NCBI RefSeq assembly: GCF_001429245.1
Contig: NZ_LMJE01000001.1
Location: forward strand, 1,669,564-1,733,563
DNA length: 64,000 bases
DNA from: Rhizobium sp. Root274
GTDB taxonomy: Bacteria > Pseudomonadota > Alphaproteobacteria > Rhizobiales > Rhizobiaceae
Reading direction: 5' to 3'
Shown here: positions 1 through 4,896 of the stretch, piece by piece
Layout of the letters: the number at the start of each line of letters is the position of its first letter
Position numbering within the stretch: the stretch's first letter is position 1
Position numbers and translations under genes: made by a program
Notes under the pieces: model-generated
What the model was told of the DNA's origin: nothing
Database searches by the model: none
The model's input: the letters and a program-made list of their open reading frames with translations, nothing else

Positions 1-483
1 CTGCACATGATGGCGGGCATCGCCCAGGCGCGCGATGCGGCTGCCAGCAATACCTATCGGGAGAACCTGAAGCGGGCGACCGACCTGACGGACAAGGCTG
101 GTCTAGGCTTGGTGATTGAACCGATCAATGGCCGCGACATGCCGGGTTACTTCCTCGATGACTTCGACCGCGCAATCGCGTTTATCGCGGAGGTCGATGC
201 CCCTCATGTGCAACTGCAATTCGACATCTACCACCGGCAGATCCTCCATGGCGACGTGATCATGGCCTTGAGGCGCCTCGCCCCGCTGATCGGTCACATC
301 CAGACGGCTTCGGTTCCGGAGCGGCACGAGCCGATGACCGGAGAACTCGACGACCGACGCATCTTCGCCGAGATCGATGCCATCGGCTATCAAGGCTACG
401 TGGGATGCGAGTATCGGCCGGCAGGTATCACGCAAGAAGGCCTCGGCTGGATGGCGAAGATTTCGGGTCCTACAGCCGGCTGA
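1..483 (+). CDS. Hydroxypyruvate isomerase family protein (5' end missing)
   Basis: The gene enters from the left edge; 160 C-terminal residues are visible, so the true start lies outside the window. The protein is a TIM-barrel sugar isomerase of the Hyi/OtnI group. Visible family signatures are EPINGRDMPGYFL (metal-binding Glu), the FDIYHRQ segment followed by GD, the GHIQTASVPERHEP stretch with the metal/substrate histidines, and GCEYRPAG near the end. Members interconvert hydroxypyruvate and tartronate semialdehyde, or 2-oxo-tetronates, in the cytoplasm. The sequence cannot separate these two activities, and the upstream neighbours that would help are not in the window. Confidence 0.8.
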   Translation: MHMMAGIAQARDAAASNTYRENLKRATDLTDKAGLGLVIEPINGRDMPGYFLDDFDRAIAFIAEVDAPHVQLQFDIYHRQILHGDVIMALRRLAPLIGHIQTASVPERHEPMTGELDDRRIFAEIDAIGYQGYVGCEYRPAGITQEGLGWMAKISGPTAG

Positions 484-602
484 CAGGCCTCCGGTACACA
501 GCGTCGCGATGCCGCATCCTCAACTGACCTGTTTTTCTGATCCGAGGCACAGGTGGTGGCGTACTCGCTGTTGTATTCTTTAACTGCCCGACGGGATGAT
601 CC

Positions 603-1811
603 GTGGCTACTCCGCAACTCCGCTCAGGACCGACTTACGCTCCTCTCACCCGGGAGGCGGCATTGGCGCGGCTGCGGGAGTTCGCACCCAAGGCGGGCAC
701 GCACTACGCCCGGCTGCGAAACCTGGATCTGGGTCCGGGCCGGCATCAGCATGTGTCAGGCCTGTCGCCTGCGCTGCGAAGGCGGCTGATCAGCGAGCAG
801 GAAGTCGTCTCGGCCGTCGTGGACGAACAGGGACTGGACGCCGGCGAAAAGTTCATCAGCGAGGTCTTTTGGCGCACCTATTGGAAAGGGTGGCTCGAAC
901 AACGGCCTTCGGTTTGGGCTGGCTATTTGCGGGCCGTGGATCACGAAAAGCAATGGCTCGACCACGATCGCGATCGGGCAACGCGGTTTTCTCAGGCTGT
1001 TGAGGGGCGTAGCGGCATCGACTGTTTCGACGCCTGGGCTGCCGAGTTGAATGAAACCGGTTATCTGCACAACTGGGCGCGCATGCAGTTCGCCTCCATC
1101 TGGATCTTTACGCTCGGCCTGCCGTGGGAACTGGGCGCCGCCCACATGTTCTCGCGCCTTATCGATGCAGATCCAGCCTCCAACACCCTCTCCTGGCGCT
1201 GGGTTGCGGGGCTTCACACCAAGGGCAAGGCCTATCTTGCCGACGGCGAGCGCATTCGGGCCATGACGCAGGGCCGCTTTTCACCGCAGGGGCTTGCAAG
1301 GCGAGCCCTTATCCCCGCCGACAGTATCGACAGTCCCGAAGCATCTGCACCACGCCCGGCTGTGCCTCTGCAGAAAGGGGTGTCGAGCCTGCTGCTGCTG
1401 ACTGCTGAGGATCTGTCGCTGGAAACCTTGCCGCAAATTGGCGCCTTGTCGATCGACGCGCTCGCGGTGCTCCCAGGTGACAGCGAGGCAGACGCGGTGG
1501 CGCTTGCCGACGCACTGGCGCGTGCCCGTCAGAGATGGCCAGATACACAGGTGCTCGGCCCCTTCGGTGTCTCCGATCTACGATTGGCAAGAACTGTCGG
1601 ATTCCGGCAGATCGTGACCGGCTTTGCCCCTGTCGGGCCGATTGCTGACAGGTTGTCGGCGCTCAAGGTTGACGCCGAGCGTGAAGGTTTGGCCCTCACC
1701 GAATATCAACGATCCTGGGACGTTGACGCTTGGCCATATTGCGGGAAGGGCTTCTTTCCTCTCAAGGAGAAGATCCCGATGCTGATGTCTCTCAATGGAG
1801 ACCAGAGATGA
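603..1811 (+). CDS. Photolyase/cryptochrome-like FAD protein with permuted domain order
   Basis: 402 aa from a GTG start preceded by GGGA; no in-frame ATG gives a better start. Residues about 45-220 carry the photolyase FAD-domain signatures: LSPAL (54-58), EVFWRTYW (87-94), NWARMQFAS (157-165), DADPASN (188-194) and WRWVAG (198-203). Normal photolyases begin with an alpha/beta antenna domain, but here the FAD domain is N-terminal. A second alpha/beta region follows at about 260-395; TAEDLSLETLP (267-277) and KGFFPLKEKIP (382-392) resemble the beginning and end of the usual N-terminal antenna domain. I infer a circular permutation. The RIFNP-type end of the FAD domain is replaced by a divergent segment, so DNA repair activity is uncertain. 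The stop overlaps the next gene by ATGA. Confidence 0.8.
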   Translation: MATPQLRSGPTYAPLTREAALARLREFAPKAGTHYARLRNLDLGPGRHQHVSGLSPALRRRLISEQEVVSAVVDEQGLDAGEKFISEVFWRTYWKGWLEQRPSVWAGYLRAVDHEKQWLDHDRDRATRFSQAVEGRSGIDCFDAWAAELNETGYLHNWARMQFASIWIFTLGLPWELGAAHMFSRLIDADPASNTLSWRWVAGLHTKGKAYLADGERIRAMTQGRFSPQGLARRALIPADSIDSPEASAPRPAVPLQKGVSSLLLLTAEDLSLETLPQIGALSIDALAVLPGDSEADAVALADALARARQRWPDTQVLGPFGVSDLRLARTVGFRQIVTGFAPVGPIADRLSALKVDAEREGLALTEYQRSWDVDAWPYCGKGFFPLKEKIPMLMSLNGDQR

Positions 1812-2155
1812 ACGAGCGCGTCACGATCTGGTTCGACAGCGGATGTCCACTGTGCCAACGCGAAATCGCGCTGATGCGAAGGCTCGATCGGCGCGGGGCT
1901 ATCCTCTTCGTCGATGCTTGCAATCCGGACACCGACTGCCCGATCGACCGGGGGCAAATCCTGTCTCGCTTTCATGCCCTCGAAGACGGCCGATTGCTTT
2001 CAGGAGCGGCGGCCTTTGCCGCAATGTGGCGGACTATACCCATCTTGCGTCCGCTCGGTCTGCTCGCCGGCTGGCCGCCGGCCACCCCGCTGTTCGAACG
2101 AGCCTATCAAGCGTTTCTGCGATTTCGGCCCCGGCTTCAACGGTGGTTGCGATGA
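1808..2155 (+). CDS. DCC family thiol-disulfide oxidoreductase-like protein (DUF393)
   Basis: 115 aa. The N-terminal WFDSGCPLCQ motif (Asp10, Cys13, Cys16) is the D-x-x-C-P-x-C signature of the DCC (DUF393) family, a thioredoxin-like group predicted to do thiol-disulfide chemistry; biochemical roles are poorly known. The rest of the protein is short, hydrophobic and basic, with no clear membrane helix. ATG at 1808 overlaps the stop of the FAD protein, and its own stop overlaps the ATG of the kinase gene. All three products are therefore probably made together. Function beyond family membership is not recognisable. Confidence 0.85.
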   Translation: MNERVTIWFDSGCPLCQREIALMRRLDRRGAILFVDACNPDTDCPIDRGQILSRFHALEDGRLLSGAAAFAAMWRTIPILRPLGLLAGWPPATPLFERAYQAFLRFRPRLQRWLR

Positions 2156-3465
2156 GCGACCGCTTTCGCCCGGTGCCCCAGGGCCGTCTCGCCCGTCTCG
2201 CAGCCTTCGGCCAGATTGCTGGGGGCGTCGCAACCGGCGTGGTTGGCGAAGGGCTCAGGCGGCTGGCGCAAGGGGAGAGGCCGCAGCTTGCCGATCTGCT
2301 CCTGACGCCGTCGAACGCCTTGCGGGTGACGGACCAGCTGTCTCGGCTCAGGGGTGCTGCCATGAAGCTGGGCCAGATGATCTCCCTGGACGCTGGCGAC
2401 ATGCTTCCAGCAGAACTCACCACGATCCTCGCGCAGCTGCGCGATGGCGCCCATGTCATGCCGCCGCAGCAGCTGGCAGGCACCCTGGCAAACGCATGGG
2501 GCGCAGACTGGCGCCGACATTTTGTCCGCTTTGACACGAAGCCGATAGCGGCAGCCTCGATCGGACAGGTGCACCGAGCGCGACTTCCTTCAGGTCGGGA
2601 GCTTGCGATCAAGGTACAGTATCCCGGGATTGCCGCGAGCATCAACGCCGATGTCGACAATGTCGCCACCTTGCTGCGCATGTCCGGACTGTTGCCGGCA
2701 GGGCTTGATGTGCGTCCGCTTCTTGCCGAGGCAAAACGGCAACTCCATGAGGAAGCCGATTACCTGCGGGAGGCTGAGGAGATGCGGCGCTTCCGCGCTC
2801 TCTTGTCGAGCAACGACCGCCTTCTGGTGCCGGAACCTGTCGACGAGCTGCTGCGACCAACCGTGCTGCCAATGGACTACATCGCCGGCGAACCGATCGA
2901 GACCCTGGAGCAGGCTTCGCCGGAGCGACGCGGAAGCATAGGACAAGAGCTGCTTGACCTGGTGCTGCGGGAACTGTTCGAATTTGGTCTGATGCAGACC
3001 GACCCGAACTTTGCGAATTTTCGCTGGCAACCCGACACAGGCCGTCTCGTTCTGCTCGACTTCGGAGCCGCCAGACCCGTCTCTACCGCGACGTCGGATG
3101 CCTATCGCAGGCTGTTGCGCGCTGCCCTTTCGCAAGATGTCGATGCTGTCCTCCACGCTCTTTCGTCCATGGGCTTCCTGTCGGCTGCGCAGATGGAGCG
3201 TCATGGAAGAACGCTAAGGGTCATGGCGCAGATCGGGCTGAAACATTTGCACGCGAGGCCCGACGGGTTGCTCGATTTTGCCGATCGCAGTCTCATTCCT
3301 GTGCTGCGCGCGCATACGGCGCCGATCGCCGCCGACCGACAGAGCTTTGATCTTCCGCCGGCGGAAATGCTGTTTGTTCAGCGCAAGATCAGCGGCATGG
3401 CCCTGCTTCTCATGCGGCTCCAGATGCAGCTGCCGCTTGTTGAGACGCTCACACGCCACGCATAG
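2152..3465 (+). CDS. ABC1/UbiB atypical kinase, COQ8/ADCK3-like
   Basis: 437 aa. It has the family-specific KxGQ motif (KLGQ, 72-75), the alanine-rich nucleotide loop AAASIGQVH (133-141), an invariant Lys at 154, the ExD element (201-203), the catalytic loop QTDPNFANF (282-290) and the DFG-like LLDFGA (301-306). The QTDPN..NF loop and the SIGQVH spelling resemble eukaryotic COQ8/ADCK3 more than Escherichia coli UbiB, which has a HADPHPGN loop. COQ8-type proteins support ubiquinone biosynthesis through ATPase activity. No C-terminal membrane anchor like that of UbiB is evident. It is the third gene of the operon, starting inside the stop of the DCC gene, so a redox or quinone-linked role for the whole operon is plausible but inferred. 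Confidence 0.85.
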   Translation: MSDRFRPVPQGRLARLAAFGQIAGGVATGVVGEGLRRLAQGERPQLADLLLTPSNALRVTDQLSRLRGAAMKLGQMISLDAGDMLPAELTTILAQLRDGAHVMPPQQLAGTLANAWGADWRRHFVRFDTKPIAAASIGQVHRARLPSGRELAIKVQYPGIAASINADVDNVATLLRMSGLLPAGLDVRPLLAEAKRQLHEEADYLREAEEMRRFRALLSSNDRLLVPEPVDELLRPTVLPMDYIAGEPIETLEQASPERRGSIGQELLDLVLRELFEFGLMQTDPNFANFRWQPDTGRLVLLDFGAARPVSTATSDAYRRLLRAALSQDVDAVLHALSSMGFLSAAQMERHGRTLRVMAQIGLKHLHARPDGLLDFADRSLIPVLRAHTAPIAADRQSFDLPPAEMLFVQRKISGMALLLMRLQMQLPLVETLTRHA

Positions 3466-3528
3466 CCAGGACGTCAACAGACAGACCGGGCTGGCGCTGG
3501 TGTGAAGACACAAAGATATTGAAGAAGG

Positions 3529-3618
3529 TGGCGGACAGGGTGGGATTCGAACCCACGGTACGCTTTCACGCACACACGCGTTCCAGGCGTGCGCCTTAAA
3601 CCACTCGGCCACCTGTCC
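3529..3618 (-). tRNA. tRNA-Ser (anticodon GGA)
   Basis: Read on the minus strand, the 90-nt gene has a 7-bp acceptor stem (GGACAGG with CCTGTCC), a D-arm GTGGCCGAGTGG and an anticodon stem CACGC/GCGTG around loop CTGGAAC (anticodon GGA). It also has a long class II variable arm and the T-loop GGTTCGAATCC. The discriminator is G and the CCA end is encoded (3529-3531). It decodes UCC/UCU. It lies downstream of the kinase gene in the opposite orientation. Confidence 0.97.
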
Positions 3619-3660
3619 AGGGGGATCGCGGGGCAAACCACCGCGGTTGGTCGGGCGCGA

Positions 3661-3688
3661 TATATACCCATGAAATCCGACTGATCAA
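3661..3688 (-). promoter_or_regulatory. Predicted sigma-70-type promoter of tRNA-Ser
   Basis: On the minus strand TTGATC (3683-3688) and TATATA (3661-3666) are spaced 16 bp, and the -10 lies about 43 bp from the tRNA 5' end. Position and spacing fit a tRNA promoter; the transcription start is inferred. Confidence 0.5.
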
Positions 3689-3705
3689 CCTAAATCTCGC
3701 ATTAT

Positions 3706-3734
3706 TTTGACATCGGCTGTCAAATCCCTATCTA
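3706..3734 (+). promoter_or_regulatory. Promoter overlapped by a perfect 7+7 bp inverted repeat
   Basis: TTGACA (3707-3712) and TATCTA (3729-3734) with a 16-bp spacer form a near-consensus plus-strand promoter about 58 bp upstream of the small membrane protein gene. The -35 box lies within a perfect dyad, TTTGACA (3706-3712) and TGTCAAA (3718-3724) around TCGGC. A repressor bound there would block RNA polymerase. The regulator is unknown and none is encoded next door. Confidence 0.5.
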
Positions 3735-3791
3735 TAGTCCCGGACGGCAGTGGGGTTGGAGACTGCCGTTCGTGTTCAGCCGGGGATGTGT

Positions 3792-4112
3792 ATGGTGCGG
3801 CTTGCGTTCAGAATGTTGAGTTTGCTGTTTCTTTGCGTCGGAACCATCGCTGCGGCGGTGGATGCGATTGCATCAGTTTCGGCCTCCCGCGTGATCCTGA
3901 CGCCGCTCGCGTCGATCTGGAATGATGTCAGCCCAGGCTCGCTGCTGAAACTGCAGAGCATGCTGGAAATGCGTTTCGGGCCTGCGGCCTGGTCGGCGGT
4001 CCAGGATATGCTCTTGCCACAGCCGGGCTTCGTAGTGCTGTTCGCACTGTCGCTGGTCTTCTGGATGGTCGGATACAAGAAGCCCTCGCTGGCCGGCCGT
4101 TTCGCCGCCTGA
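3792..4112 (+). CDS. Small two-helix membrane protein of unknown function
   Basis: 106 aa from ATG 3792, chosen because GGGG (3782-3785) lies about 6 bp upstream; a further upstream GTG or ATG is possible. An N-terminal hydrophobic segment (about residues 5-25) could be a signal anchor. A second helix ([15 protein letters not shown]) lies near the C-terminus and is followed by the basic tail KKPSLAGRF. The middle third is amphipathic and probably periplasmic. I do not recognise a functional family; such proteins are widespread as conserved hypotheticals in rhizobia. It has its own strong promoter and is followed after 124 bp by msrA. Confidence 0.7.
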
Positions 4113-4236
4113 GCCGAGCGGAAATCACCGCCGGCCGCCTTCATCTAACGGGTCCGCGTCAAACCGATCGCGGTTGCCTTTGCCTGCGACCAAGTTGCGG
4201 CAGCGGACTACTTTACCTCTCAGAAGGAGTATCGAG

Positions 4237-4896
4237 ATGTTCCTGATCGACATGTTCAACAAGAAAACCGTGATGCCGACGGCGGAAAACGCCCTTCCGG
4301 GCCGTTCCCAACCGCTCGCCACGGCAGAAACGCATTTCGTCTCTGGCTTACCGCTCAAGGGCCCGTATCCGGAGCAGATGCAGACGATCTATCTAGGAAT
4401 GGGCTGTTTCTGGGGCGCCGAGCGGCTTCTCTGGCAGACACCGGGGGTCTATGTGACCGCTGCCGGTTATCAGGGCGGCATCACTCCCAATCCGACCTAT
4501 CAGGAAACCGTGACCGGCCTCACCGGTCATACGGAAGTGGTCAAGGTGGTCTATGATCCCGCCAAGATCAGCCTGGAGGCGCTTCTCAAGATCTTCTTCG
4601 AGGCGCATGATCCGACCCAGGGCATGCGCCAGGGGAACGATATCGGCACCACCTACAGGTCGGCCATCTATGTCGAGACGGAGGAAGACATGGCACTGGC
4701 GATCAGGGTGCGCGACGCGTTCCAGGAAGCCTTGGTGAAGGCCGGGCATAACAGCCGGGTGACGACTGAAATTGCCCATGCCGGCCCGTTCTACTATGCC
4801 GAGGATTATCACCAGCAGTATCTTGCCAAGAATCCGAATGGCTATTGCGGACTTCGCGGAACCGGCGTGTCCTGCCCGATCTCCCCCGCGGCCTGA
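4237..4896 (+). CDS. msrA: Peptide-methionine (S)-S-oxide reductase MsrA
   Basis: 219 aa. MsrA reduces methionine-S-sulfoxide in proteins in the cytoplasm. The catalytic motif GCFWGAE (56-62, nucleophile Cys57) is present, with the GYxGG and HTE(V)V elements following. The C-terminal segment has Cys204 and Cys213, which fit the resolving and recycling cysteines of the thioredoxin-dependent class. The start is ATG 4237 after AGAAGGAG (4222-4229). About 50 residues precede the core, a common N-terminal extension in rhizobial MsrA. Confidence 0.95.

Follow-up and report, generated by a model that had tools for sequence, protein, structure and literature searches.

An inverted-domain gene of Rhizobium sp. 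Root274 predicted to encode a NewPHL-class photolyase

The 64,000-nucleotide stretch of Rhizobium sp. Root274 analysed here (the window; contig NZ_LMJE01000001.1) carries at 603-1811 on the forward strand an open reading frame (ORF) with a GTG start codon and a product of 402 amino acids. Its domain order and fold indicate that the gene very probably encodes a photolyase of the NewPHL class, also called SPL and Phr7. An earlier note, made from the letters alone, had located the photolyase motifs that bind flavin adenine dinucleotide (FAD) where ordinary photolyases carry their antenna domain, and these motifs sit as claimed: LSPAL at residues 54-58, EVFWRTYW at 87-94, NWARMQFAS at 157-165, DADPASN at 188-194 and WRWVAG at 198-203. 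In a Pfam search with hidden Markov models, the kind of check that the same note had proposed, FAD_binding_7 (PF03441) was the sole domain of the protein (residues 84-216, E 7.5e-22, profile positions 1-128 of 203), and the antenna domain DNA_photolyase (PF00875) had no match in it at E ≤ 10.

The reversed order of the two domains is genuine, and it is the hallmark of the published class NewPHL/SPL/Phr7; Pfam, AlphaFold models and structural comparison all bear out what the earlier note had read from the motifs (Table 1). Model residues 1-240 align structurally to FAD domains. Among solved structures, the closest in sequence belongs to E. coli photolyase (1dnp), residues 198-405 of which match residues 11-224 of the protein. 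The AlphaFold models have mean predicted local distance difference test (pLDDT) scores of 93.7 and 94.7, the latter for the C-terminal Z-domain folded alone. This domain is confidently modelled with five strands (residues 261-396, pLDDT about 94), and the two segments that the earlier note had picked out as antenna-like fall where it had put them in an alpha/beta domain: TAEDLSLETLP on strand 261-267, the first of the domain, and the loop that follows, KGFFPLKEKIP on the last helix (384-396).

Table 1. Features at the predicted NewPHL locus and photolyase genes elsewhere in the same genome
Feature	Coordinates	Strand	Evidence
Predicted NewPHL-type photolyase gene	603..1811	+	ORF, PF03441, end-to-end matches in 80/80 listed loci
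FAD-binding catalytic domain, helical, residues 1-240	603..1322	+	
Z-domain, C-terminal, five-stranded alpha/beta, residues 248-402	1344..1808	+	AlphaFold, structural alignment
Xylose-isomerase-like TIM barrel gene, 3' part	1..483	+	PF01261 E 6.8e-29
DCC1-like thiol-disulfide oxidoreductase gene	1808..2155	+	PF04134 E 4.2e-23
ABC1/UbiB-like atypical kinase gene	2152..3465	+	PF03109 E 7.1e-60
Class I photolyase gene	G000:C9:84823-86229		whole-genome search
DPRP (FeS-type) photolyase gene	G000:C8:257024-257689		whole-genome search

With NewPHL/SPL/Phr7 the protein shares an N-terminal FAD domain with nothing before it, a C-terminal alpha/beta Z-domain (matched to the published Z-domain by order and fold, not by sequence comparison), an active site of the type that acts on cyclobutane pyrimidine dimers (CPDs), and the lack of Fe-S cysteines that is stated for Phr7. 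It holds two cysteines only, C141 and C380, at which 128 and 123, respectively, of 312 aligned homologues also have Cys. This alignment combines 235 of 241 proteins (kept if 370-450 amino acids long) with 77 of 80 named loci, which are those listed of at least 589 stretches of GTDB genomes that encode a relative; close and identical copies were retained, two of them being the window's own gene. Some SPLs do carry Fe-S cysteines. Published passages describe Phr7 as having none, and in others SPLs figure as a class of proteins or one of the main groups (PMC9498864, PMC9178010).

Other classes fit less well. Class I CPD photolyase, as in E. coli, has the same catalytic and CPD-contact residues in its FAD domain but places the PF00875 antenna domain first, which this protein does not, and has a longer FAD domain end. 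The score against the DASH cryptochrome model TIGR02765 is 58.4 bits (cut-off 317.05), and that against the NCBIfam photo-lyase model NF007955 is 76.4 bits, far under the cut-off of 506. FeS-BCP or prokaryotic (6-4) photolyases (PhrB, DPRP) have a related FAD domain fold, but in these a DPRP domain comes first and an Fe-S cluster is present, whereas the window protein has no match to the DPRP domain (PF04244), only its two cysteines and a separate place in the tree. Phr6 and the split Phr4/Phr5 of marine Synechococcus/Cyanobium share the inverted FAD/photolyase domain order; passages of PMC9426592 give them Fe-S cysteines and propose a (6-4) photolyase function, whereas the window protein has just two cysteines. 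Among the PHROGs, one family of unknown function matches residues 13-232. In a tree of FAD domains built from 26 NewPHL rows (assigned by us, the window included), 30 class I rows and 22 DPRP rows, a single branch sets each group apart from the others (support 98/98, 95/86 and 100/100, from a bootstrap that had not settled).

Alignment to 1dnp pairs E87, W90, N157, M161, N194, W198, W200 and W175 with residues that we take to be E274, W277, N341, M345, N378, W382, W384 and W359 of the E. coli enzyme, and these are kept in 312, 312, 310, 311, 311, 311, 312 and 312 of the 312 homologues, respectively. That the residues with which class I enzymes touch CPD and FAD are conserved speaks for CPD repair, not for an altered chemistry, and lends no support to the function other than standard CPD repair that the earlier note had suggested from the altered end of the FAD domain. 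Of the Trp triad, W198 and W175 recur in 311 and 312 of the homologues; the third position, where one alignment places W118 of the window protein, shows no conserved Trp across the family. NewPHL is listed among the classes that retain the FAD-facing Asn in a passage of PMC12083526.

By homology and conserved contacts, the N-terminal helical domain is predicted to bind FAD, and the Z-domain would pack against it. The original NewPHL paper reportedly describes the Z-domain as shielding the FAD site. Blue or ultraviolet A light would excite reduced FAD, from which an electron would pass to a CPD flipped into a pocket lined by E87, W90, N157, M161 and W200; the dimer would then split and the electron return, as the conservation of these residues and the mechanism established for class I suggest. 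Photoreduction of FAD may proceed via W198 and W175. Published passages report NewPHLs as CPD repair enzymes and give a preference for single-stranded DNA for two members, and by analogy a CPD in single-stranded DNA is probably the preferred substrate here. Characterised NewPHLs, reportedly from work by Emmerich et al. in 2020, are those of Dinoroseobacter shibae and Methylobacterium mesophilicum (A8LJA9 and M7YZC8), neither species being among the 80 named loci listed. More widely, none of four published NewPHL accessions or their source organisms appeared among the matches listed for plasmids, for GTDB genomes and for proteins, the last with a Beijerinckiaceae query.

Within the family, the active site falls into two types. 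Residues 158 and 162, encoded at window positions 1074-1076 and 1086-1088 and separated by one turn of the active-site helix, are Trp and Gln in 135 of the 312 homologues, the window protein among them, and His and Trp in the other 177, with no other pairing. In the tree, eight W158/Q162 rows form one set (support 95/99) and the remaining 18 NewPHL rows are of the H158/W162 type.

Several points weigh against assigning the protein to NewPHL and crediting it with the properties published for the class. The software that built the tree flags a meeting of long branches between DPRP and NewPHL; W118 stands opposite E. coli W306 in one alignment, unlike the "mere Trp dyad" quoted for the D. shibae NewPHL in a passage of PMC8948257; and properties measured on the other 158/162 subtype may not carry over to the window protein. 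A different doubt arises from the missing antenna domain itself, since none was detected in front of the FAD domain and the gene could be a fragment, its antenna domain either lost or encoded in a different frame, the second of which the earlier note had raised against itself. The ORF at 1-483, which runs open into the window's edge, encodes a TIM-barrel protein (PF01261) and not an antenna domain, the 80 loci listed, which come from other genomes, all align end to end (query start 1-23, end 376-386), and pLDDT in the full-length model drops below 50 at residues 1-10 and 400-402 only. Given the upstream TIM barrel and the end-to-end matches, the gene is complete, and the chance that it is a fragment is negligible. 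A cryptochrome-like light sensor, as opposed to a repair enzyme, would account for the shortened FAD domain end, PF03441 being matched only up to position 128 of its 203, and for the redox and kinase genes that adjoin the gene. It is nonetheless a very unlikely reading of a protein that keeps the class I CPD-contact residues, belongs with NewPHLs reported to repair CPDs and ends at the Z-domain without a further C-terminal extension.

The origin of the Z-domain is a separate question, and either answer is compatible with a NewPHL photolyase. The earlier note had inferred a circular permutation, and we consider the chances evenly balanced that the ancestral alpha/beta antenna domain moved from the front of the protein to the back and is now the Z-domain. 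The domain order and a fold compatible with the antenna domain stand in favour: five strands alternate with helices as in that domain, and among the 50 rows that VIA-align gave for the Z-domain, photolyase or cryptochrome chains make up 16. Twelve of these 16 align 134-147 of its 155 residues, with 122 or fewer in all other rows. A profile alignment to class I N-domains is colinear over 142 columns and scores 25.7, whereas the best of 60 column shuffles reaches 21.2 and the reversed comparison 16.2, and a passage of PMC9426592 names the Z-domain "an atypical, short photolyase domain". What weakens the claim is a lack of specificity, as neither profiles nor fold searches single out photolyase N-domains. 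The VIA-align rows include universal stress protein (USP) domains as well as photolyase N-terminal domains. The Z-domain profile gave a probability of 0.7 against the canonical photolyases of relatives, 15.3% against class I N-domains and 1.2% against DPRP N-domains (not above its shuffles), and among decoy families 29.1% for Usp, 1.6% for ETF, 0.4% for CTP_transf_like and 0.1% for ThiF, the decoy profiles being rough (strand ambiguous for 51 of 120 decoy sequences, picked by shared 3-letter words). With a larger NewPHL profile all N-domain and decoy comparisons fell below 4%. A control on the limits of the method matched the class I N-domain to that of DPRP at only 10% and to Usp at 74%; profile comparison does not separate photolyase N-domains from universal stress proteins. 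Foldseek with the Z-domain alone gave 11 matches at E ≤ 0.001, all TcdA, followed by phosphopantetheine adenylyltransferases, with the first cryptochrome at rank 26, and its top matches being other alpha/beta enzymes, this search is not specific for the antenna domain. No photolyase was among the 14 matches of the Z-domain profile to PDB sequences (best E 0.036, 2,3-dimethylmalate lyase), and Pfam analysis of 74 Z-domains found no family in more than three members and one PF00875 match (E 0.043).

Downstream, the three genes are joined by two 4-bp ATGA overlaps, one between the NewPHL stop and the DCC start (1808-1811) and one between the DCC stop and the ABC1 start (2152-2155). No sigma-70-like promoter was found at 430-4180, and the same region has six terminator-like matches against a shuffle mean of 2.9. 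Of the 80 named NewPHL loci, 19 have a same-strand DCC homologue no more than 1.5 kb away (nine downstream, ten upstream) and 16 have such an ABC1 homologue (15 downstream); one or the other is present at 27 loci and neither at 53 by the same search. Near 24 class I photolyase genes used as a control the count is 0/24, a weak comparison because these loci extend just ~0.4-1.5 kb past the gene, while most NewPHL loci extend 5 kb. Pfam analysis of 121 of the 156 immediate-neighbour ORFs in other loci, which were called by a rough longest-ORF script, revealed no single common partner (CLP_protease 10, NAD_binding_9 8, PF03441 3, PF00875 3, DCC1-like 3). One candidate NewPHL-DCC fusion, the database protein P0102, was rejected: immediately ahead of the join its sequence no longer follows the family, as would be expected of two adjacent genes and a frameshift. 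Further downstream of the NewPHL, DCC and ABC1 genes, an ORF at 4174-4896 encodes a peptide methionine sulfoxide reductase (PF01625), the domain beginning at residue 71.

A protein homology search returned 7,550 homologues at E ≤ 1e-5 among 7,999 candidates scored, some of which may be canonical photolyases; the best 120 of these are 341-518 amino acids long, are 51-100% identical and carry PF03441. The nearest named homologue among the matches listed is from Rhizobium glycinendophyticum (81% identical; P0003). Some match was found in 31 of 40 relatives, full-length in six of the 40 (45-69% identity; five of 23 in the same genus), and the rest cover part of the protein, mostly the FAD domain; with so few full-length matches, the gene is patchily distributed. 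Among the matches listed, six of 158 matching plasmid records (H1, H3-H7) cover at least 80% of the query, with hosts in Novosphingobium, Niveispirillum, Peteryoungia, Asticcacaulis and Ruegeria, so NewPHL genes also occur on large plasmids; in none of the ten phage records with a match does it span 80% of the query. The Root274 genome itself (4.56 Mb, 14 contigs) holds two further family members (Table 1), and a whole-genome search with PF00875 yielded a single match (E ≤ 0.001), which lies in a different gene on contig C9. Judged by this gene content, the NewPHL most likely complements the class I and DPRP-type (6-4) photolyases of the genome.

The exclusive 158/162 pairs and the DCC/ABC1 neighbourhood are two details that may be new. 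It seems doubtful that W158/Q162 NewPHLs are a distinct functional subtype, in which the shifted Trp together with changes at 205, 217 and 380 would alter substrate choice or FAD photoreduction and the DCC/ABC1 neighbourhood would link the enzyme with the response to light or oxidative stress and not with repair alone. The two pairs are natural variants in which photoreduction and substrate preference could be compared; the neighbourhood provides a lead on physiology. The gene adds one more member to this class, whose defining inverted topology the earlier note had recovered from raw sequence, and the question of a relocated antenna domain bears on the proposal, reported in a passage of PMC9498864, that SPLs are the ancestor of the family.
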